Shown here one piece after another: positions 50,613 through 63,242 of a stretch of DNA of 64,000 bases; the first letter of the stretch is position 1, and every line of letters starts with the position of its first letter. A program made the position numbers and the translations under genes. Below the pieces are notes generated by a model, which had not been told where the DNA came from, did not search any database, and worked only from the letters and a program-made list of their open reading frames with translations. This DNA is from Actinoallomurus spadix (lineage in GTDB: Bacteria; Actinomycetota; Actinomycetes; Streptosporangiales; Streptosporangiaceae): NCBI RefSeq assembly GCF_024055725.1, contig NZ_JAMXMX010000014.1:62001-126000 (forward strand), in the 5' to 3' direction.

Positions 50613-51617
50613 GTGGACCGCGATGACCAGGGACGACGTTCGGCACGGTGGCCGGTGCGGCGTCGTCCGCCGACGCGCTGGGCCGAGCAGGAGCCGACCG
50701 TCGGGCAGGCCGACGCGGCGGTGATCGGAGCGGCACTGAAACGAGCGCGGGAGCGCCCCTCCGGGAACTGGTTCGCCGTCGCCCCGAGCGGTGACGTACG
50801 GGCGGACCGGCCGCTGGGCCTGCGCGTCCTCGGCCGGGAACTGGTCGCCTGGCGCGACCGGGCCGGAACCGCGGTGGCCGGGCCCGGTGCCTGCCCGCAC
50901 CTCGGCGCGCCGCTGGCGCGCGGCCGGATCGTCTGCGGAGACCTGGTGTGCCGGTGGCACGGCCTGCGGCTCGCGCCGGACGGCGGGGCGGGCTGGCGGC
51001 CGCTACCCTGCCACGACGACGGCGTCCTGACGTGGGTCCGGCTCGACCAGGCCGGTGAGGACCCGTCGCCCCGGCCGGTGCTGCCCGCCCGCCCGCGGCC
51101 GGCCCGCAGCCTGCACGCGGTGATCCGGGCGGTGGGCGTGTGCGAGCCGGAGGACGTGGTCGCCAACCGGCTCGACCCGTGGCACGGCGCCTGGTTCCAC
51201 CCGTACTCCTTCGCCCGTCTCCGCGTGGCGCACGCCCCGCCCGCCGGCGCCGAAAACGCCGACGACCGGTTCCTGGTGGAGGTCACGTACCGCCTCGGTC
51301 CGCGCCTGGGGGTGCCGGTGCTGGCGGAGTTCACCTCCCCCGAGCCCCGGACGGTCGTGATGCGCATCGTCGAGGGTGAGGGCGCTGGCAGCGTGGTCGA
51401 GACGCACGCCACCCCCCTCGGCCCCGGGCGGGACGGCCGCCCGCGCACCGCGGTGATCGAGGCGACGATCGCTACCTCCGAGCGCCCCGGGTTCGCGGTC
51501 GCGCGGCTCGCGGCGCCGGTCGTACGGCCGCTGATGCGGCGCGCGGCCGCGCGGTTGTGGCGCGACGACCTCGCCTACGCCGAACGCCGCTACGCCCTGC
51601 GCGCCGAGGGTCCCTGA
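50613..51617 (+). CDS. Rieske-type protein of the carotenoid cluster
   Basis: The 334-aa protein has a Rieske [2Fe-2S] domain with CPHLGAPL and CRWHGL (Cys-x-His and Cys-x2-His ligands, about residues 94-115). A C-terminal domain of about 200 residues follows, resembling DUF5914 (LDPWHGAWFHPYSFARLRV). It probably oxidises a carotenoid end group or supplies electrons for that step. The start is a GTG at 50613 with GGAGGGGG upstream. It is the only cluster gene on the plus strand, and its last 28 bp overlap the CrtU-like gene. Confidence 0.85.
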   Translation: MDRDDQGRRSARWPVRRRPPTRWAEQEPTVGQADAAVIGAALKRARERPSGNWFAVAPSGDVRADRPLGLRVLGRELVAWRDRAGTAVAGPGACPHLGAPLARGRIVCGDLVCRWHGLRLAPDGGAGWRPLPCHDDGVLTWVRLDQAGEDPSPRPVLPARPRPARSLHAVIRAVGVCEPEDVVANRLDPWHGAWFHPYSFARLRVAHAPPAGAENADDRFLVEVTYRLGPRLGVPVLAEFTSPEPRTVVMRIVEGEGAGSVVETHATPLGPGRDGRPRTAVIEATIATSERPGFAVARLAAPVVRPLMRRAAARLWRDDLAYAERRYALRAEGP

Positions 51618-53137
51618 CCGTCCGCCGGCACCAGGCCGGCCAGGCGGCGCAGCACGGCCACGCGCCCGCGCAGCGGAACGGTGGTCAGCGGATGGCCCGC
51701 CAGGCCCCAGCGGGTCAGCAGCAGGTTCGCGGCGTGCCAGCCCGTGGTGGCCGCCCGTTCCATCAGCGCGACGGGGAGATCGACGCGGACGCCGTCACCG
51801 GCCAGGACCAGCCCGGGGACCGGCCCGTCCACGGCCGGCCGCCGCGCGAACGTGCCGGGCGCGAAGAGCGGGCAGTCCCGCCGCCACTCGCTCAGGTCCG
51901 CGACGATCCGGGCACCCTCCGTCTCCGGGTAGACCTCGTGCAGGCGGCGCAGCAGGCGCGCCGAGGCCGGGCCGCGCGCGCCCGGCACCGCGTACGCGTG
52001 CAGTTCGACGACCGACCCGCCCGTCACGCGGGCCCAGGCCGCGGCCTCCTCGTCGTAACGGTCCAGCACGCTGACGTTGTCCAGCGGCGGGAGGCCACCG
52101 GTGGCCAGGAACGCCGGCCGGTCCGCCGCGACGGGCCGGTCGAGCCACAGGCGGCGCACGAGGTACGGCGGCGCGGTCTCCTGGGCTGCGACGCGCCCCC
52201 GCCACTCCGGGTCACCCAGCCCGGGAGACGCGGCGACGAGGTCGCGCAGGCCGGGCACGTCCAGGGCCAGCACGACCGCGTCGGCGGGGCGGCCGCCGCG
52301 CCGGGTCTGCACGGTGAACCCGTGCGGCCGGGGCCGGACGGCCTCGACCGGCGTGCCGGTGCGCACGTCCGCGCCCAGGTCCGCCAGATGACGGCCGGCC
52401 GCCGCCCACAGGTCCCCGAGCGGGCGGCGGGGCACGTCGAACAGCAGGCCCTCGGCCGAGCCGAGGAAGTACAGGTGGAACATGACCGCCAGTTCGGCGG
52501 CGGACAGCCGGTCCGGCGGGGCGAAGAAGCTGCGCGAGAACACGTCGAACGCCAGGTGCCGGGCGGCGGCCGGGAAGCGCAACCGGGCCAGGAACGCGGC
52601 GGCGTCCAGGTGGTCGAGCCGCCGGTACGTGCCGGGGACGGTGACGTTCATGAGCGGGAGGGCCGCCCGGGCGTTGAGGCGCAGCAGGTCCCGGGCCGTG
52701 AAGGTCGGGCTGCGCAGAGCGAAGGCGAGGGCGTTCCAGGGCGGGACGGCGGGCAGGTCGCGGAACGTGTCGGTGCGCCCGGCCGCGTCGACGAGCGGGT
52801 AGTCCGGCAGCGCCGTCAGCCCGCCGAGGTCCGGATCGGTCCGGCGCAGCAGGGCGCGGAGGTTGTAGTACTGGCGGAAGAACGCGTGGAAGCCCCGGCT
52901 CATGCCCACCCGCTCACCGCCGGGCAGCGTCGCGGTCCAGCCGCCCGCCCGCCCGCCGAGATGGTCCGCACGCTCGTACAGCTCGACGGCGATGCCGCGC
53001 TCGGCGAGCGCCGTCGCGGCGGTCAGACCGGCGATCCCGCCGCCGACGACGACGGCGCGCGGCCGCTCGGCGAGCGCACCGGCGTGCAGGCGGCCGGGCG
53101 GCGCCGGATGGCGCACCCGCCGGCGATCACGGCTCAC
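51590..53137 (-). CDS. CrtU-like carotenoid desaturase/methyltransferase
   Basis: The 515-aa FAD protein has N-terminal VVVGGGIAGLTAATALAERG (about residues 29-48), SRGFHAFFRQYYNLR as in CrtU/isorenieratene synthases, and a C-terminal FAD segment GLVLAGDGVRVDLPVALMERA. CrtU enzymes desaturate beta-ionone rings and shift a methyl group to form aromatic rings. That activity needs a cyclic substrate, which the CrtYc/CrtYd pair in this cluster should provide. The GTG at 53137 has GGAGGAGGG upstream. The gene is the last in the crtI-crtB-crtYc-crtYd-methyltransferase-crtU order. Confidence 0.87.
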   Translation of the reverse strand: MSRDRRRVRHPAPPGRLHAGALAERPRAVVVGGGIAGLTAATALAERGIAVELYERADHLGGRAGGWTATLPGGERVGMSRGFHAFFRQYYNLRALLRRTDPDLGGLTALPDYPLVDAAGRTDTFRDLPAVPPWNALAFALRSPTFTARDLLRLNARAALPLMNVTVPGTYRRLDHLDAAAFLARLRFPAAARHLAFDVFSRSFFAPPDRLSAAELAVMFHLYFLGSAEGLLFDVPRRPLGDLWAAAGRHLADLGADVRTGTPVEAVRPRPHGFTVQTRRGGRPADAVVLALDVPGLRDLVAASPGLGDPEWRGRVAAQETAPPYLVRRLWLDRPVAADRPAFLATGGLPPLDNVSVLDRYDEEAAAWARVTGGSVVELHAYAVPGARGPASARLLRRLHEVYPETEGARIVADLSEWRRDCPLFAPGTFARRPAVDGPVPGLVLAGDGVRVDLPVALMERAATTGWHAANLLLTRWGLAGHPLTTVPLRGRVAVLRRLAGLVPADGQGPSARRA

Positions 53138-53183
53138 GCGCCCTCCTCCGCCGGAGGGGTGACCATCCGCGCACCGCGTGCGC

Positions 53184-53900
53184 TCACGGGGCCGCCGCGC
53201 GGAAGGTGTGGACGATGCCGCGCTGCCAGCCGCCGGCCGTACGGGTCCGGACGCCGGTGAAGCCGGCGGCGCGCAGCCGGCCGGCCAGCGCCCGCGGGGA
53301 GTCGAAGTCCAGCGCGCTGCGCCACAGGTAGCGGTACAAACCCGCGTCCCCCGTCAGCAGCCGGCCCGCCGGGATGATCACGCCCCAGCAGACGGCGTGC
53401 CACACCAGCCGCGCGACCGGCCCGTCGCGCAGCGCGTAGTCGTGGACGACGAGGACACCGCCGGGGCGCAGCAGCGACCGCAACAACGCCGGCGCCTCGT
53501 CGCGGGCGGGGAGGTTGCGGAGGAGGTAGGCGGCGAAGACGCCGTCGAACGGCCCGCCGAGGTCCCCGGCGGACAGATCCTGGACCCGGCCCTCGGTGAA
53601 CCGTACGGTGGCGGGCCAGGGCTTGGCGCGGGCCCGGGCGAGCATCCCGGCGGACGCGTCGACGCCGGTGATCTCGGCATGGGGGGCGGTGGCGAGCAGC
53701 GCGGCGGTGGAGGCGCCGGTGCCGCAGCCCGCGTCGAGCAGCCGGGCCCCCGCGCCGCCCTCGGGCAGGGCGAACGCGCGGGCGGCGCGGCGCAGGGCGG
53801 CGTGGTAGCCGGGGTTCGCGCCGACGAGCCGGTCGTACGCCGCAGCGTGCCGGTCGAACGCGGCGGGGACGTCGCCCCGGAGCAGCCGCGCGCCGCTCAC
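53184..53900 (-). CDS. Carotenoid-cluster SAM methyltransferase (CrtT-like)
   Basis: The 238-aa class I methyltransferase has LLDAGCGTGASTAALL as SAM motif I (about residues 51-66), an acidic VDAS strand end, and GGVLVVHDYALRDG as post-III. FAAYLLRNLP is typical of UbiE/CrtT-like enzymes. The GTG at 53900 overlaps the CrtYd stop codon as GTGA, fixing the start and implying coupled translation. The substrate is probably a hydroxy- or carboxy-carotenoid or another isoprenoid made by the cluster. Confidence 0.85.
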   Translation of the reverse strand: MSGARLLRGDVPAAFDRHAAAYDRLVGANPGYHAALRRAARAFALPEGGAGARLLDAGCGTGASTAALLATAPHAEITGVDASAGMLARARAKPWPATVRFTEGRVQDLSAGDLGGPFDGVFAAYLLRNLPARDEAPALLRSLLRPGGVLVVHDYALRDGPVARLVWHAVCWGVIIPAGRLLTGDAGLYRYLWRSALDFDSPRALAGRLRAAGFTGVRTRTAGGWQRGIVHTFRAAAP

Positions 53901-54220
53901 CGGCCCGCCGTCCCGTCCGGCCGCTGCCGCTCCCAGGCGAGGAGGGTCGCGGTGACCAGGGCGAACCCGAACAGGAAGTCCTCGACGGGAATGTCGAATG
54001 GGAAGCGCAGCCCGGTGATCCCGCCTGGGGCGTAGCCGACGACGGGCGACGGCAGCCGCGTCAGCCTGCCGTCGACGGCGACCTGGAAACCGAAGACGAT
54101 CAGCATCGTCAGCCAGTACGCCGGGCGGCGGAGCAGCCCGGTCCGCAGCCACCAGCGTTCGAGGGCGACGACGACGGCCACCGACAGCAGGGCCGGCACC
54201 GTGTACCCCAGCCCGTTCAT
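53897..54220 (-). CDS. crtYd: Lycopene cyclase subunit, CrtYd-like
   Basis: The 107-aa membrane protein has three helices and PFDIPVEDFLFGF, the acidic pair E80-D81 corresponding to the catalytic PxE(E/D)xxF motif of heterodimeric lycopene cyclases. AGGAGGT lies 5 bases before ATG 54220; an ATG at 54238 overlapping the crtYc stop codon is less likely. It works with CrtYc to close lycopene ends into ionone rings in the membrane. Confidence 0.87.
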   Translation of the reverse strand: MNGLGYTVPALLSVAVVVALERWWLRTGLLRRPAYWLTMLIVFGFQVAVDGRLTRLPSPVVGYAPGGITGLRFPFDIPVEDFLFGFALVTATLLAWERQRPDGTAGR

Positions 54221-54234
54221 GGGACCTCCTACAG

Positions 54235-54576
54235 TCATCGCCGCCGCTCCGTTCGCGCCCGGGCCGGCACCCGCGGGAGCATGCGCCGTACGGTCTCCAG
54301 GGTCAGCACCGCGCACACGGGCACGACGAGGAAGAACAGCGCCTCCTCCAGCGGTACCGACAGCGGCAGGGTGACGCCGACGAGGTAGCGGGGGTCGTAC
54401 CACCAGACGCCGGCCGCGATCGCGACCGCGTCCCAGGCGAGGAAGACGGCCGCCACGGGCAGCACGGCCCGTGCGAGCCGGGCGGGGCGCCGGTACACCC
54501 GGCTGCCGGACAGTTCCAGGGGCAGCGTGACCGCCAGACAGCCGGCCAGTAGGAGCAGATAGCGCAGATGGTCCAC
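54235..54576 (-). CDS. crtYc: Lycopene cyclase subunit, CrtYc-like
   Basis: The 113-aa membrane protein has three helices and LPLSVPLEEALFF, with acidic residues E77-E78 at the catalytic position. It is the first half of the heterodimeric cyclase, with CrtYd encoded 15 bp downstream. The GTG at 54576 has GGAGGAGGTGAG directly upstream, inside the end of crtB. The stop codons and starts of crtB-crtYc-crtYd are tightly packed, indicating one operon. Confidence 0.88.
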   Translation of the reverse strand: MDHLRYLLLLAGCLAVTLPLELSGSRVYRRPARLARAVLPVAAVFLAWDAVAIAAGVWWYDPRYLVGVTLPLSVPLEEALFFLVVPVCAVLTLETVRRMLPRVPARARTERRR

Positions 54577-54577
54577 C

Positions 54578-55570
54578 TCACCTCCTCCGGGCGGGCTGTG
54601 TGTGCACCGCCCGCGTCCACAGGGTGCGGCCGAACGCCGATCCGGCCAGGGCGAGCCGCCGGCCGGTGCTGACGCTGACCCGGCCGGCGAAGACGTTGTG
54701 ACCGCGGTCCTCGATCCGGTCGAGGATGCGGGAGTACAGGGCGTACGCGGTGGCGATGCAGGGCCGCGAGGCGGGGTCGAGCAGCGCGATCCCCGGGCGG
54801 GCCAGCCGGTAGACGGCCCGGGTGCGGCCGATCTGGTCCGCCAGCGCGTGCCGGACGCGCGGTTCGACGCGTCCGGTCCGCCGGCACCAGGCCAGCAGGT
54901 CGCGGTCGACGCCGTAGGCCGCGAGCTCGTCGGCGGGCAGGTACACCCGGCCGCGGTCGAGGTCCTCGCCGACGTCGCGCAGGAAGTTGGTCAGCTGGAA
55001 CGCCCGTCCGAGGGCCGTGGCGTGCGGTACGGCCCCGGCCGGGTCGCCGACCGTGCCGAGTACGGGCAGCATCTGCAGGCCGATGACCTCGGCGGATCCG
55101 TACATGTAGTCGCGCAGGGCGGCCCGGGTCGGGTAGCCGGTGACGGTGAGGTCCATCCGCATGGAGCGCAGGAACGCGGTGAACAGCGCGCCGGCGATGC
55201 CGAACCGGCCCGCCGTGTCGACGACGGCGGCCAGGACGGGGTGGTCGCTGCGGCCGGTGCGCAGGCCCGCGGTGAGCGCGGCGGCGACGTCGTCCAGCAG
55301 CGCGGCGATCCGGTCGGGTCCGTGTCCGGGACCGGGCTCGTCGACCAGGTCGTCCGTGTGGCGGGCGAACCCGTACAGGGCGTGGACCGCCGGTCGCCGG
55401 GACGGTGGGAGCAGCCGTGTCGCGAGGAAGTACGTCCGGCCGTGGCGCGCGTTGAGCGCCCGGCACCGGCGGTACGAGGCGCGCAGCAGCGGGTCGGTGA
55501 TCCCGGCGGCGTCCAGCTCACGGCGCGCCGCCGCCTCCCCCGCCTCCCGGGGTCCGGCCCGGCCCGTCAT
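54578..55570 (-). CDS. crtB: Phytoene synthase
   Basis: The 330-aa protein has both Asp-rich prenyl-binding motifs of squalene/phytoene synthases: HTDDLVDEP (D73-D77) and NFLRDVGEDLDRGRVYLP (about 195-212). YGFARHTDD and GSAEVIGLQML are also conserved. It joins two GGPP molecules to phytoene. The ATG overlaps the crtI stop codon as ATGA. No GGPP synthase gene is present in the cluster, so the substrate must come from elsewhere in the genome. Confidence 0.94.
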   Translation of the reverse strand: MTGRAGPREAGEAAARRELDAAGITDPLLRASYRRCRALNARHGRTYFLATRLLPPSRRPAVHALYGFARHTDDLVDEPGPGHGPDRIAALLDDVAAALTAGLRTGRSDHPVLAAVVDTAGRFGIAGALFTAFLRSMRMDLTVTGYPTRAALRDYMYGSAEVIGLQMLPVLGTVGDPAGAVPHATALGRAFQLTNFLRDVGEDLDRGRVYLPADELAAYGVDRDLLAWCRRTGRVEPRVRHALADQIGRTRAVYRLARPGIALLDPASRPCIATAYALYSRILDRIEDRGHNVFAGRVSVSTGRRLALAGSAFGRTLWTRAVHTQPARRR

Positions 55571-57105
55571 CGCGGGCCGCTCGCGGGGGTGAGCCGGCCT
55601 GCCGGGTCCGCGATGAGCACGCGCCGGCCCCGGGGCACGCCGGTGATGCGGTCGGCCGCGAGCCGGCCGGACATGAGGGCAGTGGGGATGCCCACGCCGG
55701 GCACGGTGCCGCAGCCGGCCAGGACGGCGTTCTCCACCGCGCGCGGGACGTTGGCGGGCCGGAACGGCCCGGTCTGCCGCAGCGTGTGCGACAGGCTGAA
55801 GGGCGTGCCCGCGGTGAGGCCCAGGCGTTCCCAGTCGGCGGGGGTGTCCAGGTGGAGCGTCTCCACGGTGCTCGGCGCGAAGCCGAGCCGGCCCGCCGCG
55901 GTGTCGAGCATCCGGCGGGCGTAGGCGGGACCGGCGCGATCCCAGTCGTCCGGCCGGTCGGCGAGGTTCGGGACGGGGGCCAGGAGGGACAGCAGTTGCC
56001 GTCCGGGCGGGGCGAGGGAGCGGTCGGTCGCGGTCGGCCGGGTCAGCAGGAGCGACGGGTCGCGCATCAGCCGGCCATCGAGGACAAGGTCGTCGAACAC
56101 GCTCTCCCACGCCTGCCCGAACAGGAGGTTGTGGTGCAGGGTCCCCTCCCACACGGTGGGCGCGGACAGGTGCAGGACGACCGCCGAGGGCGCCAGTTGG
56201 AGCGGCACGACGCGGTACGGCGAGCAGCCGAGCAGGCGGTACGCGACCGGCAGCTCGCAGCTGAGGACGACCGCGTCGCACCCGATCCGGTCCCCGTCCT
56301 CGGTGTGGACCGCGGCGACGCGGCGGCCCCGGCGCTCCAGCGACGCGACGGTCGCGCCGTAGCGGAACGTGACGCCGGCGTCCGCGGCCGCGGCCGCCAG
56401 GGCGTCCGGCAGCGCGCGCATCCCGCCGTACGGAAAGTAGACGCCGCCGATCGTGTCCATGTACGCGATCACGGCGTACAGCGCGAGGGCGGTGCGGGGC
56501 GCGACGCCGGCGTACAGCGCCTGGAAGGTGAAGACCCGCCGCAGCCGCTCATCGCGGATGAAGCGGCGGACCGCGCGCTCCCACTGGCCGAACCCGCCCA
56601 GGACCGTCAGCCGCGCCAGCTGTGGCCCCAGCAGGCGGAGCGGCGAGTCGAAGTTGGTGCCGATGAAGTGCGCGAACTCCGCCTCGTACAGCCGGAGCAG
56701 CCACTGCCGCAGCCGCCGGTAGCCGGCCGCCTCCCCCGGCCCCGCGAAGGCGCGGATCTCCTCGGCCATCGCCTCCGGGTCGGCGCGGACGTCGAGGACG
56801 CTCCCGTCCGCGAAGTGGGCGCGGTAGGCGGGGTCCAGCCGCACCATCCGCAGCCGGTCCGCCATCGACTCGCCGACCGCCGCGAAGGTGTCCTCGACGA
56901 CGCCGGGCATGGTCAGCACCGTCGGCCCGGTGTCCAGGAGGTGGCCGGCGACGTCGCGGCGCCCGGCCCGGCCGCCGGGCCCGGCGAGGCGTTCGACGAC
57001 GGTGACCTCACGGCCGCGCCCCGCGAGGTGCAGCGCGGCGGACAGACCTGCGAGCCCCGCCCCGATCACGACGATCCGGTCGGTGCTTCCCGCGACGGTG
57101 CGCAT
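55567..57105 (-). CDS. crtI: Phytoene desaturase
   Basis: The 512-aa protein has N-terminal IVVIGAGLAGLSAALHLAGRG (about residues 11-31), a TGPTVLTMPGVVEDTF segment and the C-terminal FAD-binding GCGTVPGVGIPTALMSGRLAA typical of CrtI. It converts phytoene to lycopene through four desaturations. The ATG at 57105 follows CGAGGGGC. It is the first gene of the leftward carotenoid operon. CrtI-like enzymes also include diapophytoene and methoxyneurosporene desaturases, but the neighbours favour phytoene. Confidence 0.92.
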   Translation of the reverse strand: MRTVAGSTDRIVVIGAGLAGLSAALHLAGRGREVTVVERLAGPGGRAGRRDVAGHLLDTGPTVLTMPGVVEDTFAAVGESMADRLRMVRLDPAYRAHFADGSVLDVRADPEAMAEEIRAFAGPGEAAGYRRLRQWLLRLYEAEFAHFIGTNFDSPLRLLGPQLARLTVLGGFGQWERAVRRFIRDERLRRVFTFQALYAGVAPRTALALYAVIAYMDTIGGVYFPYGGMRALPDALAAAAADAGVTFRYGATVASLERRGRRVAAVHTEDGDRIGCDAVVLSCELPVAYRLLGCSPYRVVPLQLAPSAVVLHLSAPTVWEGTLHHNLLFGQAWESVFDDLVLDGRLMRDPSLLLTRPTATDRSLAPPGRQLLSLLAPVPNLADRPDDWDRAGPAYARRMLDTAAGRLGFAPSTVETLHLDTPADWERLGLTAGTPFSLSHTLRQTGPFRPANVPRAVENAVLAGCGTVPGVGIPTALMSGRLAADRITGVPRGRRVLIADPAGRLTPASGPR

Positions 57106-57211
57106 GCCCCTCGGGTACCCGCACAGCCGCTCCCCAAGCACCTCCGGATCCCTATCACCGCAGGTCAGGGCGGTAATGCGCGGATTGACGCGGAAAATCC
57201 CGCGGCCGGTC

Positions 57212-58408
57212 TCAGGTCGCCTTGGCGAGGGCCTGGTCGAGGTCGGCCCACAGATCGTCGGGGTGCTCGATGCCGACGGCGAGCCGGATCGTGCCGGCGC
57301 CGATGCCCGCCGCCCGCAGCTGCTCGTCGCCGAGCATCCGGTGGGAGGTGCTGGCCGGGTGCAGGACGTAGGTCTTCACTCCCCCGAACGAGGGCGTGAG
57401 GGCCGCCAGGCGGACCGCTCCGGCGAAGGCCGCCCCGGCCTGGCGCCCACCGGCCAGGTCGAAGGACAGCACGCCGCCCTGGCCGTCGGGCATCAGGCGG
57501 ACCGCGACCTCGTGGTCCGGGTGGTCCGGCAGGCCGGGGTAGCGGACGGCCGCCACTGCGGGATGACCCGCCAGCCGCCCGGCCAGGTCGAGGGCGTTGT
57601 CGCAGTGCCGCCGCATCCGCAGGGCCAGGGTCTGCATCCCCCGTACGGTGAGCCAGGACGCGAACGGGTCGGCGGACGCGCCGAGTTCGGCCGCGTAGTG
57701 CCAGACCTTCCGGCGCAGCTCCTCGGTGGCGAACACCGCGACGCCACCGAGCACGTCCGAGTGCCCGCCGAGGTACTTCGTGGCCGAGTGGACGACGACG
57801 TCCGCGCCGTGGGCGATCGGGCGGCACAGGATCGGGCTGGCGAAGGTGTTGTCGACCACGCTGAGCACGCCCGCGTCCTTCGCCACCGCGATGAGGGCGG
57901 GCAGGTCGACGACCTGGGTGGTCGGGTTGGCGATCGTCTCCAGGTAGAGCACGCGCGTGTTCGGGCGCAGCGCGGCGCGGGCCTCCTCCGGGTCGGTGCC
58001 GGAGACGTAGGTCACCTCGACGCCCCACCGTTCGGCGAGGTCGTCGAGCATCCCGATCGTGGCGCCGTAGAGGCAGTCCTGGGCGACGACGTGATCGCCG
58101 GTGCGCAGGACCGCGAGCAGTACCGCGTTGATGGCGCCCATCCCGGACGCCGCGGCGAGCCCCGCGACCCCGCCCTCGAGATCGGCCACCGCCTCCTCCA
58201 GCGTCCGGACGGTCGGATTGCCGAGCCGGCTGTAGAAGAACGCGCCGTCGGGCCCGCCGAACGCCTCGGCCATCACGTCGGCGTCGTCGAAGGCGAACAG
58301 GTGCCCCTGGTAGATCGGCACGCCGACCGGGCGGCTGCCCGCCACCTCGACGACGGGCGGGTGGACGGTCCGGGTCTCGGCGTGCGGTCTGTCCTGCGGT
58401 GAGGTCAT
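57212..58408 (-). CDS. Methionine gamma-lyase / cystathionine-lyase-family PLP enzyme
   Basis: The 398-aa Cys/Met-metabolism PLP enzyme has YSRLGNPTVRTLEEAVADLEGG (cofactor-phosphate region), GATIGMLDDL and YLETIANPT. VVDNTFASPILCRPI follows, and the PLP lysine is in SATKYLGGHSD. Substrate may be methionine, cystathionine or homocysteine; the motifs do not decide. The ATG at 58408 has GAGG 9 bases upstream. It is divergent from the GntR-fusion regulator and shares with it a region holding a 24-bp operator, so sulfur-amino-acid turnover may be tied to that circuit. Confidence 0.9.
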   Translation of the reverse strand: MTSPQDRPHAETRTVHPPVVEVAGSRPVGVPIYQGHLFAFDDADVMAEAFGGPDGAFFYSRLGNPTVRTLEEAVADLEGGVAGLAAASGMGAINAVLLAVLRTGDHVVAQDCLYGATIGMLDDLAERWGVEVTYVSGTDPEEARAALRPNTRVLYLETIANPTTQVVDLPALIAVAKDAGVLSVVDNTFASPILCRPIAHGADVVVHSATKYLGGHSDVLGGVAVFATEELRRKVWHYAAELGASADPFASWLTVRGMQTLALRMRRHCDNALDLAGRLAGHPAVAAVRYPGLPDHPDHEVAVRLMPDGQGGVLSFDLAGGRQAGAAFAGAVRLAALTPSFGGVKTYVLHPASTSHRMLGDEQLRAAGIGAGTIRLAVGIEHPDDLWADLDQALAKAT

Positions 58409-58462: not shown

Positions 58463-58488
58463 TATTTGTCGTCTGTGGACGACAAATA
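58463..58488. promoter_or_regulatory. Palindromic operator at the GntR-fusion gene
   Basis: The perfect 11-bp arms TATTTGTCGTC and GACGACAAATA flank TGTG. Its inner 24 bp (58464-58487) follow ATTTGYC-N10-GRCAAAT, the same form as the site at the ABC operon promoter (60051-60074). It lies between the divergent lyase and regulator genes. Confidence 0.85.
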
Positions 58489-58519
58489 TGCTGGGCCTGA
58501 CCCCCGACCGAGGACGTCC

Positions 58520-59959
58520 ATGGACATCGCGCAGCAGCCTCTGCCCGCCTACTACCGCCTGAAGCGGCGCCTTCTCGCCGACATCGAGAGCGGTCACTAC
58601 GGCGTGGACGGCAGGCTGCCCACCGAGCACGCCCTGTGCGCGGCGTACGGCCTGAGCCGCACGCCGGTCGCGCGGGCGCTGTCGGAACTGGCGGCCGAGG
58701 GGGTCGTCGTGCGGCACCGCCGCCGCGGCACGTTCGTGAACCCGGAGTGGATGCGAGCGCTGCGCGCCGCTCCGGAGGTCTCGGTGATGACCTGCGACCA
58801 GGCCTGGGAGGACCAGCTTCGGGAGGCCGCCGGCAACGACCTGCGGCTGTCGATCACGTCGGCGCCGCTGAGCGAGCTGCGGACGCTGTTCCGCCGGGCG
58901 ATCGCCGAAGGACGCGGCCCGGACCTGGCGCTGGTCGACTCCGTCTGGGTCGCGGAGTTCGCCGAGTCCCACATGCTCACGCCGATCGGCGAGCTCGATC
59001 CCGAGTGGGTCGCGGCCGAGCACGACGCCGACTTCCTGCCGCCGTTCGCCGACGCGTACCGCCTGGACGGCGACGGCATCGTGGCCGTCCAGGCCCAGGC
59101 GGACGTCACCGGCCTGTGGTACCGCCGGGAGGCCCTGGACGCCGTGGGCGCCTCCCCGCCCGCCACGTGGCGCGAACTGCGCGCCCTGGGCCGTACGCTC
59201 GCGGCCGGTCTCCCCCGCGACCGGCACGCCCTGGTGATGCCCGGCGGCCCGGCCGCGACGGAGACGGCGACGTACGCGCTGGTCGGCCTGCTCGCCGCGA
59301 ACGGCGCGACGATCTTCACCGCCGACGCGGTGACGCTCGACTCTCCCGCCACCGTGGAGACGCTGCGGTTCCTGCGCCGGCTCGTCGACGACGGGGTCCT
59401 GCCCGCCGAGGTGGTGACCTACGACCGGCACCGGGCGGCCCGGCTGCTGGCGGCCGGGCGCGCGGACCTGTTCGTGGGCGCGAGCTACCACGCCGAGCTG
59501 ATCGCCGCCGAGACCGGCACCACGCTGCCCGAGGTCGGCGAGCGGTTCGGGTTCGTCCCGCTGCCGGCGGGCCCGCACGGGCCGCCGTCGATCCTGTGCG
59601 GCGGAATGGTCTACTGCATCCCCCGCCAGGCCCGGAACCCGCGGCTGGGGATGCGGCTGCTGCGCTCGGCGACGGCGCCGAAGCGCCTGGCGGACCTGTG
59701 CGCGGAGACCGGCCAGCTCCCGCCGCGCCGCAGCGTGCTGGACGCCATGGCGCCGGTCTCGCCGTTCCACGCCCAGACGGCGGCGCTGCTGGAGCACGCG
59801 GTCATGCGGCCGTCGGCGCCGGTGTACGCCCTGGTCTCCGCGCAGCTCCAGACGCTGCTGGAGGGGGTGCTGACCCGGCGGTGGAGCCCGGCGGCGGGCG
59901 TCGCCCTGGCCGCCGACCGGATCAGCGCGATCACCGGCCTCCCCGTCGTCCGCGCCTGA
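58520..59959 (+). CDS. GntR-type regulator fused to a solute-binding-protein domain
   Basis: The 479-aa protein has an N-terminal GntR winged helix (about 5-75: YYRLKRRLLADIESGHYGVDGRLPTEHALCAAYGLSRTPVARALSELAAEGVVVRHRRRGTFV) directly joined to a sugar-ABC solute-binding-protein fold of about 390 residues (ADVTGLWYRREALDAVGASPPATWRELRALGRTL, DLFVGASYHAEL). No signal peptide is present, so the binding domain works in the cytoplasm as a sugar sensor. GAGGA lies 7 bases before the ATG. It precedes the ABC operon and most likely represses it until the sugar is imported. Confidence 0.9.
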   Translation: MDIAQQPLPAYYRLKRRLLADIESGHYGVDGRLPTEHALCAAYGLSRTPVARALSELAAEGVVVRHRRRGTFVNPEWMRALRAAPEVSVMTCDQAWEDQLREAAGNDLRLSITSAPLSELRTLFRRAIAEGRGPDLALVDSVWVAEFAESHMLTPIGELDPEWVAAEHDADFLPPFADAYRLDGDGIVAVQAQADVTGLWYRREALDAVGASPPATWRELRALGRTLAAGLPRDRHALVMPGGPAATETATYALVGLLAANGATIFTADAVTLDSPATVETLRFLRRLVDDGVLPAEVVTYDRHRAARLLAAGRADLFVGASYHAELIAAETGTTLPEVGERFGFVPLPAGPHGPPSILCGGMVYCIPRQARNPRLGMRLLRSATAPKRLADLCAETGQLPPRRSVLDAMAPVSPFHAQTAALLEHAVMRPSAPVYALVSAQLQTLLEGVLTRRWSPAAGVALAADRISAITGLPVVRA

Positions 59960-60024
59960 CCGCTCGTTTCGTTCCCGCCCGACCGGCGGACGTAACGCGT
60001 TCGTAACCCATTCGCCCGTCCCTC

Positions 60025-60053
60025 TTGACGTGGAACGCTCCAGCTTCCACATT
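60025..60053 (+). promoter_or_regulatory. SigA-type promoter of the sugar ABC operon
   Basis: TTGACG (60025-60030) and CACATT (60048-60053) are 17 bp apart. The palindromic operator at 60051-60074 overlaps the -10 element and the expected start point, so a bound regulator would block transcription. A second inverted pair GTGGAA/TTCCAC (60030-60050) lies between the two elements. Confidence 0.6.
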
Positions 60054-60074
60054 TGCCACAGCACAGTGGCAAAT
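60051..60074. promoter_or_regulatory. Palindromic operator at the sugar ABC operon
   Basis: The arms ATTTGCCAC and GTGGCAAAT flank AGCACA. The outer seven bases on each side match the GntR-gene site with one symmetric change, and total length is identical (24 bp). It ends 19 bp before the binding-protein ATG. Confidence 0.85.
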
Positions 60075-60093: not shown

Positions 60094-61440
60094 ATGCGTC
60101 GGAAATCAGCCCTCGTGATGACGGCGGTCATGGTCGCGGCGACGGCGAGCGCCTGTGGCGGCGGGTCCTCGGACAGCAAAACGATCAAGGTCGCGTACCA
60201 GAAGTTCGGCAACTTCATCGGCGCCGACGAGCTGTTCAAGAAGATCAAGCCCGTCTTCGAACAGCAGAATCCCGGTCTCAAGCTCAAGCTCATCCCCATC
60301 GAAGCCGACGAGAACTCCTACTACACGAAGCTCAACCTCATGCGACGGTCGCCGAAGACCGCCCCGGACGTCGCCTACGAGGACACGTTCTTCGTGAACT
60401 CCGACGCCGAGGCGCGCTTCCTGCGGCCGCTCGACGACGACCTCAAGTCCTGGCCGGACTGGTCGCAGTTCGTCGACGCCGCCAAGGCCGCCGGGCAGGC
60501 GGCCGACGGCCACACGTACGGCATTCCCATGGGCACCGACACCCGCGGCCTCTGGTACAACAAGCAGATCTTCGCCAAGGCCGGGCTCCCGCAGAACTGG
60601 CAGCCGAAGACCTGGAACGACGTCCTGGCCGCCGCCCGCCAGATCAAGTCCAAGGTCCCCGGCGTGATCCCGCTCAACGTCTACGCGGGCAAGGGCGTCG
60701 GCGAGGCGTCCTCCATGCAGGGCTTCGAGATGCTGCTGTACGGCACGGGCGACAAGCTGTACGACGACCAGACGAAGAAGTGGGTCGCGCCGAGCCGGGG
60801 CATGGGCGCCGCCTTCGACTTCCTCAAGACCGTCTACTCCTCCGGGCTCGGTCCCACCCAGCAGCAGGCCCTCGACCCGCACTGGAGCGACAACGTCGCC
60901 GGGCAGGAACTGCCGAAGGGCAAGCTCGCAATCGCCCTCGACGGCTCGTGGCTGCCGCAGGCGTGGATCCCCGGCGGGGCGAACGCCTGGCCGCAGTGGT
61001 CCAGCGTCCTCGGCACCGCGGCCATGCCCACCCAGAACGGCCAGGCCCCCGGCAAGGTGTCGCTGTCCGGCGGCTGGCTGCTGTCGGTCGGCGCCCGTAC
61101 CAAGAACCCCTCGGCCGCCTGGAAGCTCGTCCAGCTCGCCATGAACAAGGAGAACTCCCTGTTCTTCTACGTCAAGGCGACGCAGGTGTCGGTGCGCAAG
61201 GACGTCGTCGCGGACCCGAAGTACCTTGAGGGGAATCCGACCCAGCGGTTCTGGACCGACCTGGTGTCCGTCACCCAGTACCGCCCCGCGTACAACGTCT
61301 ACCCGCAGATCTCCAACCAGCTCCAGGCCGCCAGCGAGGCGGTCGTGACCGGCCAGTCCTCGCCCCGGTCGGCGATGAACGACTTCGCCGGCCAGGTGAA
61401 GCAGATCGCCGGGCCGGACAAGGTGGAGGCGAGGTCCTGA
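60094..61440 (+). CDS. Sugar ABC transporter substrate-binding lipoprotein
   Basis: The 448-aa protein has a short signal sequence with lipobox ASAC, followed by GGGSSDSKTIKV. The family-1 extracellular binding fold includes IPMGTDTRGLWYNKQIFAKAGLP, NWQPKTWNDVLAAARQIK and SGGWLLSVGARTKNPSAAWKLVQLA. It captures an oligosaccharide; the downstream alpha-mannosidase suggests mannosides. GGAGGGAG precedes the ATG. The regulator at 58520 carries a related fold and probably senses the same ligand inside the cell. Confidence 0.93.
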   Translation: MRRKSALVMTAVMVAATASACGGGSSDSKTIKVAYQKFGNFIGADELFKKIKPVFEQQNPGLKLKLIPIEADENSYYTKLNLMRRSPKTAPDVAYEDTFFVNSDAEARFLRPLDDDLKSWPDWSQFVDAAKAAGQAADGHTYGIPMGTDTRGLWYNKQIFAKAGLPQNWQPKTWNDVLAAARQIKSKVPGVIPLNVYAGKGVGEASSMQGFEMLLYGTGDKLYDDQTKKWVAPSRGMGAAFDFLKTVYSSGLGPTQQQALDPHWSDNVAGQELPKGKLAIALDGSWLPQAWIPGGANAWPQWSSVLGTAAMPTQNGQAPGKVSLSGGWLLSVGARTKNPSAAWKLVQLAMNKENSLFFYVKATQVSVRKDVVADPKYLEGNPTQRFWTDLVSVTQYRPAYNVYPQISNQLQAASEAVVTGQSSPRSAMNDFAGQVKQIAGPDKVEARS

Positions 61441-61478
61441 TGGCCCGTACGCGCTCCACCCGAGGGGTGACGCCCTGA
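61440..61478 (+). other. 12-codon mini-ORF bridging binding protein and permease
   Basis: An ATG at 61440 overlaps the binding-protein TGA, and a frame reading MARTRSTRGVTP ends at a TGA (61476-61478) that overlaps the permease ATG at 61478. Both junctions have the form TGATG. It could carry reinitiating ribosomes across the 37-bp gap. It may be chance, but two exact overlaps are notable. Confidence 0.45.
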
Positions 61479-62398
61479 TGGTGGCCGTGGGCCTGCCCGA
61501 GCGCACCGTGACCCGCCGCCCGCCCGCCCGGCGCGGGCGGCGGGCCGCCGGGCGGGTGCTGCCGCTGGTGCCCGCCTTCGGCCTGCTCGCGCTGTTCTTC
61601 GTCGGGCCGATCCTGTGGTGCGTCTACGCGTCGTTCACCGACATCTCCCTGACCGGCGCGGGCGCCAGCAGCCCCCACCTGGTCGGCCTGCGCAACTACC
61701 GGCAGATGTTCTCCGACCCGGCGTTCGCCAAGTCCCTGTGGCTCACGGTCGTGTTCGTCATCGGCTCGGCCGTCATCGGGCAGAACGTCGGCGGCCTCGC
61801 CCTCGCCCTGCTCATGAACGGCCGGCACCGGATCGTCCGCGCGGTCGTCGGCGGCATCGTCGTCGGCGCGTGGGTGCTGCCGGAGCTGGTCGCGGGGTTC
61901 ATGTGGTACGCGTTCCTGTCCGACCACGGCACCTTCAACGCCATCCTGCGCGCGGTCGGCCTGCACGGCGGGAGCTGGTTGTACAGCAGCCCGCTCGCCG
62001 CCGTGACGATCGCGAACGTGTGGCGCGGCACGGCGTTCTCGATGCTCGTCTACTCGGCCGCGCTGTCGAACGTCCCGGACGAGCTCCTGGAGGCCGCCTC
62101 GGTGGACGGCGCGTCGGGCTGGGCGCGGCTGCGGCACGTCACGCTGCCGCTGATCCGGCGGGCGATGCTGACCAACCTGATGACGATCACGCTGCAGACC
62201 CTGGCGGTCTTCACACTGATCTTCGTCATGACGGGCGGCGGTCCCGGCACCAAGAGCCAGACCTTGCCGATCTTCATGTACCAGGAGGCGTTCAAGTTCT
62301 ACCACCTGGGCTACGGCGCGGCCCTCGCCATCGTCCTGCTGGCCGTGGGCGCGGTGTTCTCGCTCGTGTACCTGCGGGCCATGCGGAAGGAGGTGTGA
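61478..62398 (+). CDS. Sugar ABC transporter permease, MalF-like
   Basis: The 306-aa protein has six membrane helices and the cytoplasmic EAA loop (LEAASVDGASGWARLRHVTLPLI) that docks the ATPase. FVGPILWCVYASFTDISL is the first helix and loop. GAGGGG lies 10 bases before the ATG. It pairs with the next gene as the second permease. No ATPase gene is in the operon; actinomycetes often use a shared MsiK-type ATPase for such importers. Confidence 0.93.
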   Translation: MVAVGLPERTVTRRPPARRGRRAAGRVLPLVPAFGLLALFFVGPILWCVYASFTDISLTGAGASSPHLVGLRNYRQMFSDPAFAKSLWLTVVFVIGSAVIGQNVGGLALALLMNGRHRIVRAVVGGIVVGAWVLPELVAGFMWYAFLSDHGTFNAILRAVGLHGGSWLYSSPLAAVTIANVWRGTAFSMLVYSAALSNVPDELLEAASVDGASGWARLRHVTLPLIRRAMLTNLMTITLQTLAVFTLIFVMTGGGPGTKSQTLPIFMYQEAFKFYHLGYGAALAIVLLAVGAVFSLVYLRAMRKEV

Positions 62399-62399
62399 C

Positions 62400-63242
62400 G
62401 TGGCCCTCGCCTCCCCCACCGCCCCGAGGCGGCGTACGGCCGCGGTCGCCGCCTACGCCGAGCTGGCCATCGTGGCGCTGGCCTTCCTCGCGCCGTTCGG
62501 CTGGCTGTTCCTCGCGTCGCTCTCCACGAGCCCGACGCTGGACACCTCGATCCCCGACGAGCCGACGCTGCGCAACTTCGCCGACGTCCTCACCGGGGAC
62601 AACCTGCACTCGCTGGCCAACAGCCTCGTGCTGTCGCTGGGCTCGGCGCTGCTCACGCTGCTGCTCGCCGCGCCGGCGGCGTACCCGCTGTCGCGCTACG
62701 GCCGCAGGTTCGGCCGGCCGATCCTGCTCGGCCTGCTGTTCGCCACCGGCCTGCCCGTCACCGCGATCATGGTCCCGGTGTACGGGCTGTTCGTCCAGCT
62801 CGACCTGCTCGACTCCGTCCCCGCCACCGTCCTGTTCCTCACCGCCACCGGACTGCCGATGGCGATCTGGATGATGAAGAACTTCATGGACGAGGTGCCG
62901 ATCTCCCTGGAGGAGGCGGCCTGGGTGGACGGCGCGAACGGCCTGCGGGCCCTGGTGCGGATCGTGCTGCCGCTCATGGTCCCGGGCACGACCGTGGTGT
63001 TCACGTTCACCTTCGCCCTCACCTGGGGGAACTTCTTCGTCCCGTTCATCCTGCTGATCGATCCGGGCAAACAGCCGGCCTCGGTCGCGATCTACCAGTA
63101 CTTCGGCATCAACGGCATGGCCTCCTACGGCCTGCTGGCCGCCTTCTCGATCCTGTACTCGCTGCCCGTCGTCCTGCTCTACGCCGTCGCCCAGCGCACA
63201 CTGGGCAACGCGTTCGCGATGCAGGGCGCCGTCAAGGGCTGA
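62400..63242 (+). CDS. Sugar ABC transporter permease, MalG-like
   Basis: The 280-aa protein has six helices and an EAA loop (SLEEAAWVDGANGLRALVRIVLPLM). The opening AIVALAFLAPFGWLFLASLSTSP and the ending AQRTLGNAFAMQGAVKG are typical of MalG-like subunits. The GTG start at 62400 follows the upstream stop codon by one base with GGAGG just before. It completes the membrane channel with the preceding permease. Confidence 0.93.
   Translation: MALASPTAPRRRTAAVAAYAELAIVALAFLAPFGWLFLASLSTSPTLDTSIPDEPTLRNFADVLTGDNLHSLANSLVLSLGSALLTLLLAAPAAYPLSRYGRRFGRPILLGLLFATGLPVTAIMVPVYGLFVQLDLLDSVPATVLFLTATGLPMAIWMMKNFMDEVPISLEEAAWVDGANGLRALVRIVLPLMVPGTTVVFTFTFALTWGNFFVPFILLIDPGKQPASVAIYQYFGINGMASYGLLAAFSILYSLPVVLLYAVAQRTLGNAFAMQGAVKG

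Follow-up and report, generated by a model that had tools for sequence, protein, structure and literature searches.

A GntR-type regulator fused to a solute-binding-protein domain and its predicted 24-bp operators at a carbohydrate importer locus of Actinoallomurus spadix

Within a stretch of 64,000 nucleotides of the Actinoallomurus spadix genome (contig NZ_JAMXMX010000014.1, positions 62,001 to 126,000; the window), a gene for a GntR winged helix fused to a solute-binding-protein (SBP) domain is followed by an operon for a carbohydrate ATP-binding cassette (ABC) importer, and each of the two transcription units is preceded by a 24-bp inverted repeat. Both the fusion and the pair of repeats, first described in an original prediction made from the letters of the window alone, are confirmed, while the wider reading given there is partly supported. 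Judged from sequence comparison, regulator and repeats are a real, well-conserved regulator-operator pair, and the protein is probably a local repressor of the importer which also controls its own gene via these predicted operators. What the sequences show is that the two domains are fused, that both sites are present and conserved, that their half-sites keep a fixed spacing and that they are linked to the regulator family across classes.

The two repeats lie exactly where they had been predicted, site 1 with perfect 10-bp arms around a 4-bp centre and site 2 with perfect 9-bp arms around a 6-bp centre (Table 1). Even when up to two mismatches were allowed, the pattern ATTTGYC-N10-GRCAAAT was found in the window at these sites only (0.02 expected; two occurrences in none of 100 mononucleotide shuffles), and as an exact match it occurs nowhere else in the 8.02-Mb genome (G000). 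With two mismatches, four further places in the genome appear (six forward matches in total, compared with three for the reversed control pattern). One place with two mismatches (G000:C29:57038-57061, locus L072; ATTCGTCGAAGCGCTTCGACAATT), upstream of another sugar lipoprotein gene, was considered as a third site and judged a LacI-type palindrome because of its GAAGCGCTTC centre, which we take to be a LacI-type operator motif. It had been remarked that the inner ten bases of the two sites differ; they do, but both sites fit the half-site pattern TTTGYCRY-N6-RYGRCAAA at 16 of 16 positions, so that their inner bases are not wholly unrelated. As to the GT-Nx-AC palindromes of the GntR family, site 1 fits TTTGT-N12-ACAAA and site 2 has GC/GC in its place.

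Among eight genomes of the genus (G000-G007), seven encode the regulator at E <= 1e-20 and it is missing in G002; the same seven carry an orthologue of the importer lipoprotein (82-100% identical), the best match in G002 being 35%. A check of the orthologous loci, set beforehand with the strict ATTTGYC-N10-GRCAAAT, gave a divided answer: this pattern is present at three of the seven loci only and missing at four, but a 24-bp ATTTG-N14-CAA site stands at both promoters in all seven genomes with the regulator. Site 1 is conserved as ATTTG-N14-CAAA in every orthologue, and the site at the lipoprotein promoter, which ends in CAATT on the right in G003 and G005, begins 40-43 nt before the SBP start codon throughout. 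The seven genomes divide into clade A with three and clade B with four members, and the sites of clade B, whose arms are imperfect, agree with 14 or 15 of the 16 positions of the half-site pattern. In the aligned regulator promoters all eight columns of the TTTG/CAAA core are invariant versus 10 of 106 columns outside the site; in the aligned lipoprotein promoters, where the flanks are more conserved, the figures are seven of eight versus 38 of 106. The TTGACG hexamer upstream of site 2, a candidate -35 element, is likewise kept in all seven, so that site 2, which begins 20 nt downstream of it, would cover the expected -10 region.

The locus of G003 has about 1.1 kb, including an opposite-strand open reading frame (ORF; locus L016, 6416-7513), between the regulator and the lipoprotein gene. 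Despite this insertion the site begins 40 nt before the lipoprotein ATG; the operator therefore follows the promoter, not the regulator. At the other side of the regulator, about 3.6 kb separates it from the divergent pyridoxal phosphate (PLP) enzyme in G007, and the site remains with the regulator.

Outside the genus, at least 22 further fusions were found, in G058, G142, G673, G435, G496 and G480 plus 16 more from the class of G480, one of which (G1130) is a partial match only (profile residues 2-196); as the searches over 394, 396 and 395 genomes scored at most four candidates per genome, fusion counts are lower bounds. The order of G435, the class of G673 and the family of G058 were searched and contributed no added fusions. 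The degenerate pattern TTTGYCRY-N6-RYGRCAAA, drawn up by eye on the seven Actinoallomurus-type genomes and only then applied to the 22 others, was scored in the 300 nt upstream of each distant regulator with a threshold of 13 of 16. Thirteen of the 22 score 13-16 (shuffle P <= 0.028), with 6-135 nt between site and start codon in 12 of these hits and an overlap with the start codon in G1014. As background, 1605 windows of real sequence were taken from these loci at a distance from the regulator start; 18 of them score at least 13 and eight at least 14. Against this background the 13 of 22 have a binomial probability of 2e-20, or of 1e-10 with genera as the unit (7 of 15); close relatives within the set of 22 are not independent.

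Nine distant fusions stay below the threshold in the 300 nt upstream (G1030, G993, G848, G1104, G1088, G1009, G1130, G058 and G142), and four of them (G1030, G993, G1088 and G1009) have a sugar-phosphorylase-like gene ahead of the regulator, transcribed in the same direction. When six of the nine were re-scored, once gene order was known, in windows where their operon or divergon begins, significant sites emerged in G1030 (14 of 16) and G993 (13 of 16); the best scores in G1009 (12), G1088 (11), G848 (12) and G1104 (11; its contig starts about 340 nt upstream of the fusion) are non-significant. If four loci are represented by their operon-head windows, a choice made after gene order had been seen and carried over into the spacing test, 15 of the 22 have a site. 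Over the 22 windows TTTG-N14-CAAW occurs in 14 (as CAAA in six), N6 and N22 in one each and the other spacings from N7 to N23 in none; in the half-site model, 15 of the 22 windows score at least 13 with a 6-bp spacer, and no more than five do so with any other spacer length between 0 and 14. The site is thus common in the fusion group, though not universal: seven of seven at both promoters within the genus, 13 of 22 upstream of the regulator outside it. On these comparisons the claim that one regulator serves both sites is well supported.

Four divergons (L130, L134, L136 and, in G480, L108) show two palindrome-like sites each, one on the ABC side and one on the side of the regulator or phosphorylase gene. 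In L130 these are ATTTGTTGTACCGTAGCAACAATA with 13 and ACTTGTCATTGACAGATGATAAAA with 14 of 16, the second sites of L134, L136 and L108 reaching only 12; possibly these loci follow the same two-site plan as the window. A second site with 15 of 16 also lies just downstream of the regulator in L127 (G996; oriented 4856-4879), where it faces no identified transporter promoter.

Several observations weigh against this reading. The bare core TTTGY-N13-CAAA occurs at eight distinct places in the A. spadix genome, two of them here (six forward and five reverse matches; control four and four), and is not specific genome-wide. Where the usual GntR consensus has GT/AC, site 2 reads GC/GC. A strict sigma-70 consensus scan found no promoter and did not return TTGACG; the predicted overlap with the -10 region has the conserved hexamer in its favour. 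No significant site is present in seven of the 22 distant fusions (G848, G1104, G1088, G1009, G1130, G058 and G142), and the pair G058 and G142 in particular, with a near-identical recognition segment and wing, keep the regulator yet show no site above 12 in their examined, readable flanks. G142 encodes an orthologue of the importer lipoprotein at another place in its genome; in G058 the lipoprotein has no close orthologue (35%). Either autoregulation has been lost in this pair or the protein binds elsewhere. Finally, an AlphaFold model of the regulator, built on three near-identical sequence rows, has a mean pLDDT of 43, so poor for the sensor that a dimer geometry is unsupported; the winged helix alone is moderate, at about 70-84.

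The regulators of G058 and G142 (L020 and L059) lie, unlike most, near an SBP_bac_5-type transporter operon, from which a zinc-type dehydrogenase separates the one in L020; the palindrome upstream of the L020 regulator, CTCTAGACTAGAG, was seen only in two G058 loci among 59 loci compared.

That G058 and G142 retain the winged helix and show no such site, and that inner bases differ between sites 1 and 2, would also be expected if the palindromes were operators of another regulator which controls the fusion gene and the ABC operon while the fusion protein binds elsewhere. This is improbable given that the pattern tracks the fusion gene across families and classes despite changing neighbours and transporters; nor was a common other regulator gene seen by eye at the loci, though no systematic search was made. 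On another reading site 2, possibly along with site 1, would work at the RNA level, as a hairpin close to the ribosome site, and not as DNA bound by a protein; the perfect arms in clade A and the position of site 2, immediately ahead of the lipoprotein gene's ribosome site, could be cited for it. We regard it as the least probable of the alternatives: clade B and the distant members have imperfect arms, yet the outer TTTG/CAAA and the spacing persist, the distance from site to start varies over the range given above with the overlap in G1014, and site 1 sits where the promoter of the regulator is expected.

The regulator combines, as originally described, a GntR winged helix with an SBP domain and begins directly with the former. 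The recognition segment reads SRTPVARALSEL and the wing RHRRRG, with R47 in the recognition segment invariant across 29 aligned members of the fusion family. GntR-family winged helices contact a G via an arginine of the recognition helix, according to PMC4494728, and the G supplied by ATTTG fits such a contact. Beside the winged helix, the Pfam models matched in the protein are SBP_bac_1 (residues 104-387) and SBP_bac_8 only, and the profile of the sensor matches the solved sugar-binding proteins 5ci5, 6dtq, 1eu8 and 7nbz across most of the domain. As judged by eye, the signal peptide and lipobox of secreted SBPs are absent; since the N-terminus is the winged helix, nothing would export the protein. 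It is 97% identical in Actinoallomurus soli and 92% in A. purpureus, and its winged helix is the only one recognized by eye among the flanks of the 26 PF01547 matches of the genome (one of them, L084, in a wrong frame). A plasmid search for the fusion returned 309 records at E <= 1e-5, none of which covers 80% of the query. GntR plus SBP domain architectures occur in public domain databases, and a literature search for a GntR regulator with an SBP sensor found none in the titles and abstract openings of the best matches, which leaves its absence from the literature unproven.

Table 1. Features of the regulator-importer locus, in coordinates of the window
Feature	Position	Strand	Evidence and remarks
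Regulator gene (P0003, 479 aa)	58520..59959	+	GntR winged helix + SBP_bac_1 sensor, no signal peptide; start ATG at 58520, stop ends at 59959; likely ribosome site GAGGA at 58510-58514, five bases before the ATG
GntR winged-helix domain, residues 11-73	58550..58738	+	PF00392 69.4 bits (cut-off 27)
Sensor domain, SBP fold, residues 104-471	58829..59932	+	PF01547 85.7 bits, PF13416 80.2 bits
Site 1, 24-bp inverted repeat ATTTGTCGTCTGTGGACGACAAAT	58464..58487	.	Promoter region of the regulator; ends 32 nt before the ATG
Site 2, 24-bp inverted repeat ATTTGCCACAGCACAGTGGCAAAT	60051..60074	.	ABC operon promoter, between TTGACG and the SBP start codon
TTGACG, candidate -35 hexamer of the ABC operon	60025..60030	+	Invariant in 7/7 aligned promoters
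Sugar-binding lipoprotein of the ABC importer (P0001, 448 aa)	60094..61440	+	PF01547 99.2 bits; lipobox-like SACG
ABC permease 1	61478..62398	+	PF00528
ABC permease 2	62400..63242	+	PF00528
GH38 alpha-mannosidase-type enzyme, first 246 residues	63260..64000	+	PF01074; full length 1414 aa, past the window end
Divergent Cys/Met-metabolism PLP enzyme	57218..58408	-	PF01053 425 bits; judged outside the system

We infer repression from the position of the sites, and binding, a dimer, the ligand and the direction of its effect are proposed in the following model. A dimer of the winged helix would grip the two ATTTGYCRY half-sites of the 24-bp operator, one operator over the promoter of the regulator itself and the other over the -10 region of the ABC operon (with GH38 where present), so that both units would be kept low. 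The C-terminal SBP domain, located in the cytoplasm, would close on the imported glycoside or a product of it, and closure could alter how the two winged helices are held, with release of both operators. Some GntR proteins activate, and the direction of control is not readable from sequence; the fusion protein might accordingly be a ligand-dependent activator. This has little probability, as the locations of site 2, 20 nt past TTGACG, and of site 1, 32 nt before the ATG, are usual places for repressor operators, and one site per promoter also suits autorepression.

The original prediction had seen one protein fold used twice, outside to capture the sugar and inside to sense it. Its structural half holds at the level of sequence families, SBP_bac_1 being present in both the regulator and the lipoprotein; the notion of a twin with the same ligand does not follow, given 21% identity between the P0003 sensor and P0001, their separate clades and the replacement of pocket tryptophans. 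In a tree of 51 domains, which includes eight other SBPs of the genome and 15 partner lipoproteins, the 28 full-length sensors form one group (support 100/99; 99% of bootstrap trees) versus the 23 other SBP domains, while the 15 partners fall into four supported clusters divided by long branches: Actinoallomurus with the G142 importer, G996/G1016/G1142, G673/G496 and six others from the class of G480. The deep forks, where long branches meet, lack resolution and are compatible with a single origin of all partners. By BLAST score P0001 is the fifth-closest to the sensor among the other SBP_bac_1 proteins of the genome, in a ranking of 23 of the 26 matches (L082, L089 and L091 left out, L084 in the wrong frame). 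A recent duplication of the operon's lipoprotein as the source of the sensor was ruled out by the tree and this ranking, the sensors being one clade and the partners four deeply separated clusters. By its Pfam matches the SBP fold is indeed used inside and outside, the inside copy having a history of its own.

In the alignment, D140, D195 and R430 of P0003 correspond to D97, D149 and R397 of P0001, and Y323 and M363 to W286 and W328; these are presumably pocket positions in the trehalose/maltose protein of Thermococcus. As the pocket differs, a shared ligand of sensor and lipoprotein is unproven. The exchange of two tryptophans for tyrosine and methionine might even indicate that the sensor has lost ligand binding and serves in dimerization only. 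This is very unlikely, for at least 27 of the 28 full-length members retain Asp140, Tyr323, Met363 and Arg430, G1014 being the exception for three of these residues. Position 195 varies more (Asp in 15, Asn in 13 and Arg in one of 29 rows): glycosyltransferase or phosphorylase-family genes stand beside 12 of 13 Asn195 members and one of eight distant Asp members (G1016), an association that common descent confounds, and the three loci with GH63 genes have Asp. The outlier fusion L142 (G1014), with Asp, Trp and Pro at positions 323, 363 and 430 and a 14-of-16 site over its start codon, is possibly a separate sensor recruitment.

As for the ligand, mannosides had been proposed. A GH38 enzyme belongs to the operon of clade A, and in G142 a GH38 alpha-mannosidase (PF01074 316 bits) lies beside the orthologous importer (lipoprotein 51%), the regulator being elsewhere. 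On the other side, GH38 was found at E <= 1e-40 in three of the seven genomes with the regulator; the four clade B genomes have no match at this threshold, by which the divergent GH38 of G142 is overlooked too, and their examined flanks contain none. An obligatory role of GH38 in the system is not supported on this count. G002 (L062/L065) has a GH38 orthologue (80%); neither the regulator nor the importer lipoprotein has a close relative in that genome.

The distant fusions have other neighbours. Sugar-type permease matches lie within the examined flanks of 14 of the 22, mannosylglucosylglycerate-synthase-like glycosyltransferases beside ten, sucrose-phosphorylase-family genes, which we take as GH13_18, beside nine (one a fragment), MGH1-like GH63 enzymes beside three and a glycerate kinase beside two. 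At least one of the glycosyltransferase, phosphorylase-family and GH63 types accompanies 16 of the 22, and none of the seven Actinoallomurus-type loci. The GH63 enzyme of G496 scores 360 bits with the Pfam MGH1-like_GH model, 342 bits with Thermus TTHA0978 (PDB 2z07), which we assume to be a mannosylglycerate hydrolase, and 405 bits with the NCBIfam glucosylglycerate hydrolase, below the cut-off of 550. The glycosyltransferase that was scored remains at 201 bits (NCBIfam cut-off 640) and six phosphorylase-family proteins at 151-204 bits versus 334 for sucrose phosphorylase, one such protein having sucrose and glucosylglycerol phosphorylases as best PDB matches; the glycerate kinase exceeds the cut-off of its model. 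Because of these neighbouring enzyme genes, our best guess for the ligand is mannosides or glycosylglycerates. A literature search on glycosylglycerates with GntR brought nothing on point among the best matches.

The known system nearest in logic is AraR of Bacillus subtilis, which shares with the regulator described here a GntR winged helix, a periplasmic-binding-protein-like intracellular sensor and a role in the control of sugar uptake and use. According to PMC4218819 the AraR box has the consensus At(T/A)tGTaCGTAcaa(A/T)T, with the same outer letters as here; it comprises 16 bp, compared with 24 bp and thus eight more bases between these letters in the present sites. The AraR sensor is a homologue of the GalR/LacI C-domain (PMC4494728), of type I, in distinction to SBP_bac_1/8 here. 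The closest sequence relatives of the winged helix are found in HutC (DasR, NagR/YvoA), with 63.9 bits for the NCBIfam HutC model over residues 11-76 and YvoA and DasR as PDB matches. Members of HutC serve sugar control in actinomycetes; their UbiC-like/UTRA effector has no match in the regulator. The compact, central HutC consensus GTMTAKAC is unlike the wide site described here. YtrA shares GT/AC distant from the palindrome centre and genes next to ABC transporters; its C-domain has about 50 residues, compared with about 400 after the winged helix here (PMC4494728). A precedent for a GntR protein whose architecture sets an unusually wide half-site spacing is the c-di-AMP-dependent BusR, which differs in its RCK_C effector, coiled coil, 22-bp spacing and a ligand that promotes DNA binding (PMC8517857). 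Domains of BusR type were not matched in P0003. The secreted proteins TMBP (1eu8), MalE3 (6dtq) and SmoF (7nbz) share with the sensor an SBP_bac_1-type sequence and the aligned Asp/Asp/Arg, in contrast to which the sensor has no signal peptide, is fused to a winged helix and has the aligned tryptophans replaced.

PMC4494728 names FadR, HutC, MocR, YtrA, AraR and PlmA as subfamilies, contains neither 'solute' nor 'periplasmic' and does not have an SBP_bac_1 effector among the types in its section 4; PMC5882156 counts 76 companion domains for GntR and contains neither 'solute' nor 'SBP'. We tentatively suggest, with more doubt than confidence, that the fusions are a distinct GntR subfamily across several classes of one phylum, whose SBP sensor was recruited once and then retained while being re-paired with four deeply separated importer types, where hinge closure acts as a ruler giving a spacing 8 bp wider than in AraR, and whose ancestral ligands were glycosylglycerates and mannosides. 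The comparison yields a family of regulators whose operator and ligand class are predicted and whose half-site spacing follows a strict rule, and with it a handle on the uptake of mannosides or of glycosylglycerates, which are compatible solutes, in actinomycetes. If the ruler idea is true, a Venus-flytrap sensor can alter the spacing of two DNA-binding heads, and since SBPs exist for many ligands, such a protein could become a modular biosensor scaffold.

The promoter region of the regulator had also been thought to be shared with the divergent PLP enzyme. This enzyme adjoins the regulator in two of the seven genomes, is 3.6 kb off in one and absent from the examined flank in four, and its sharing of the operator was discarded as an accident of adjacency. 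Upstream of it, the window holds at 50613-57141 a carotenoid-type cluster with a squalene/phytoene synthase (PF00494), two proteins of flavin amine-oxidase/desaturase type (PF01593), a methyltransferase and a Rieske-DUF5914 protein.

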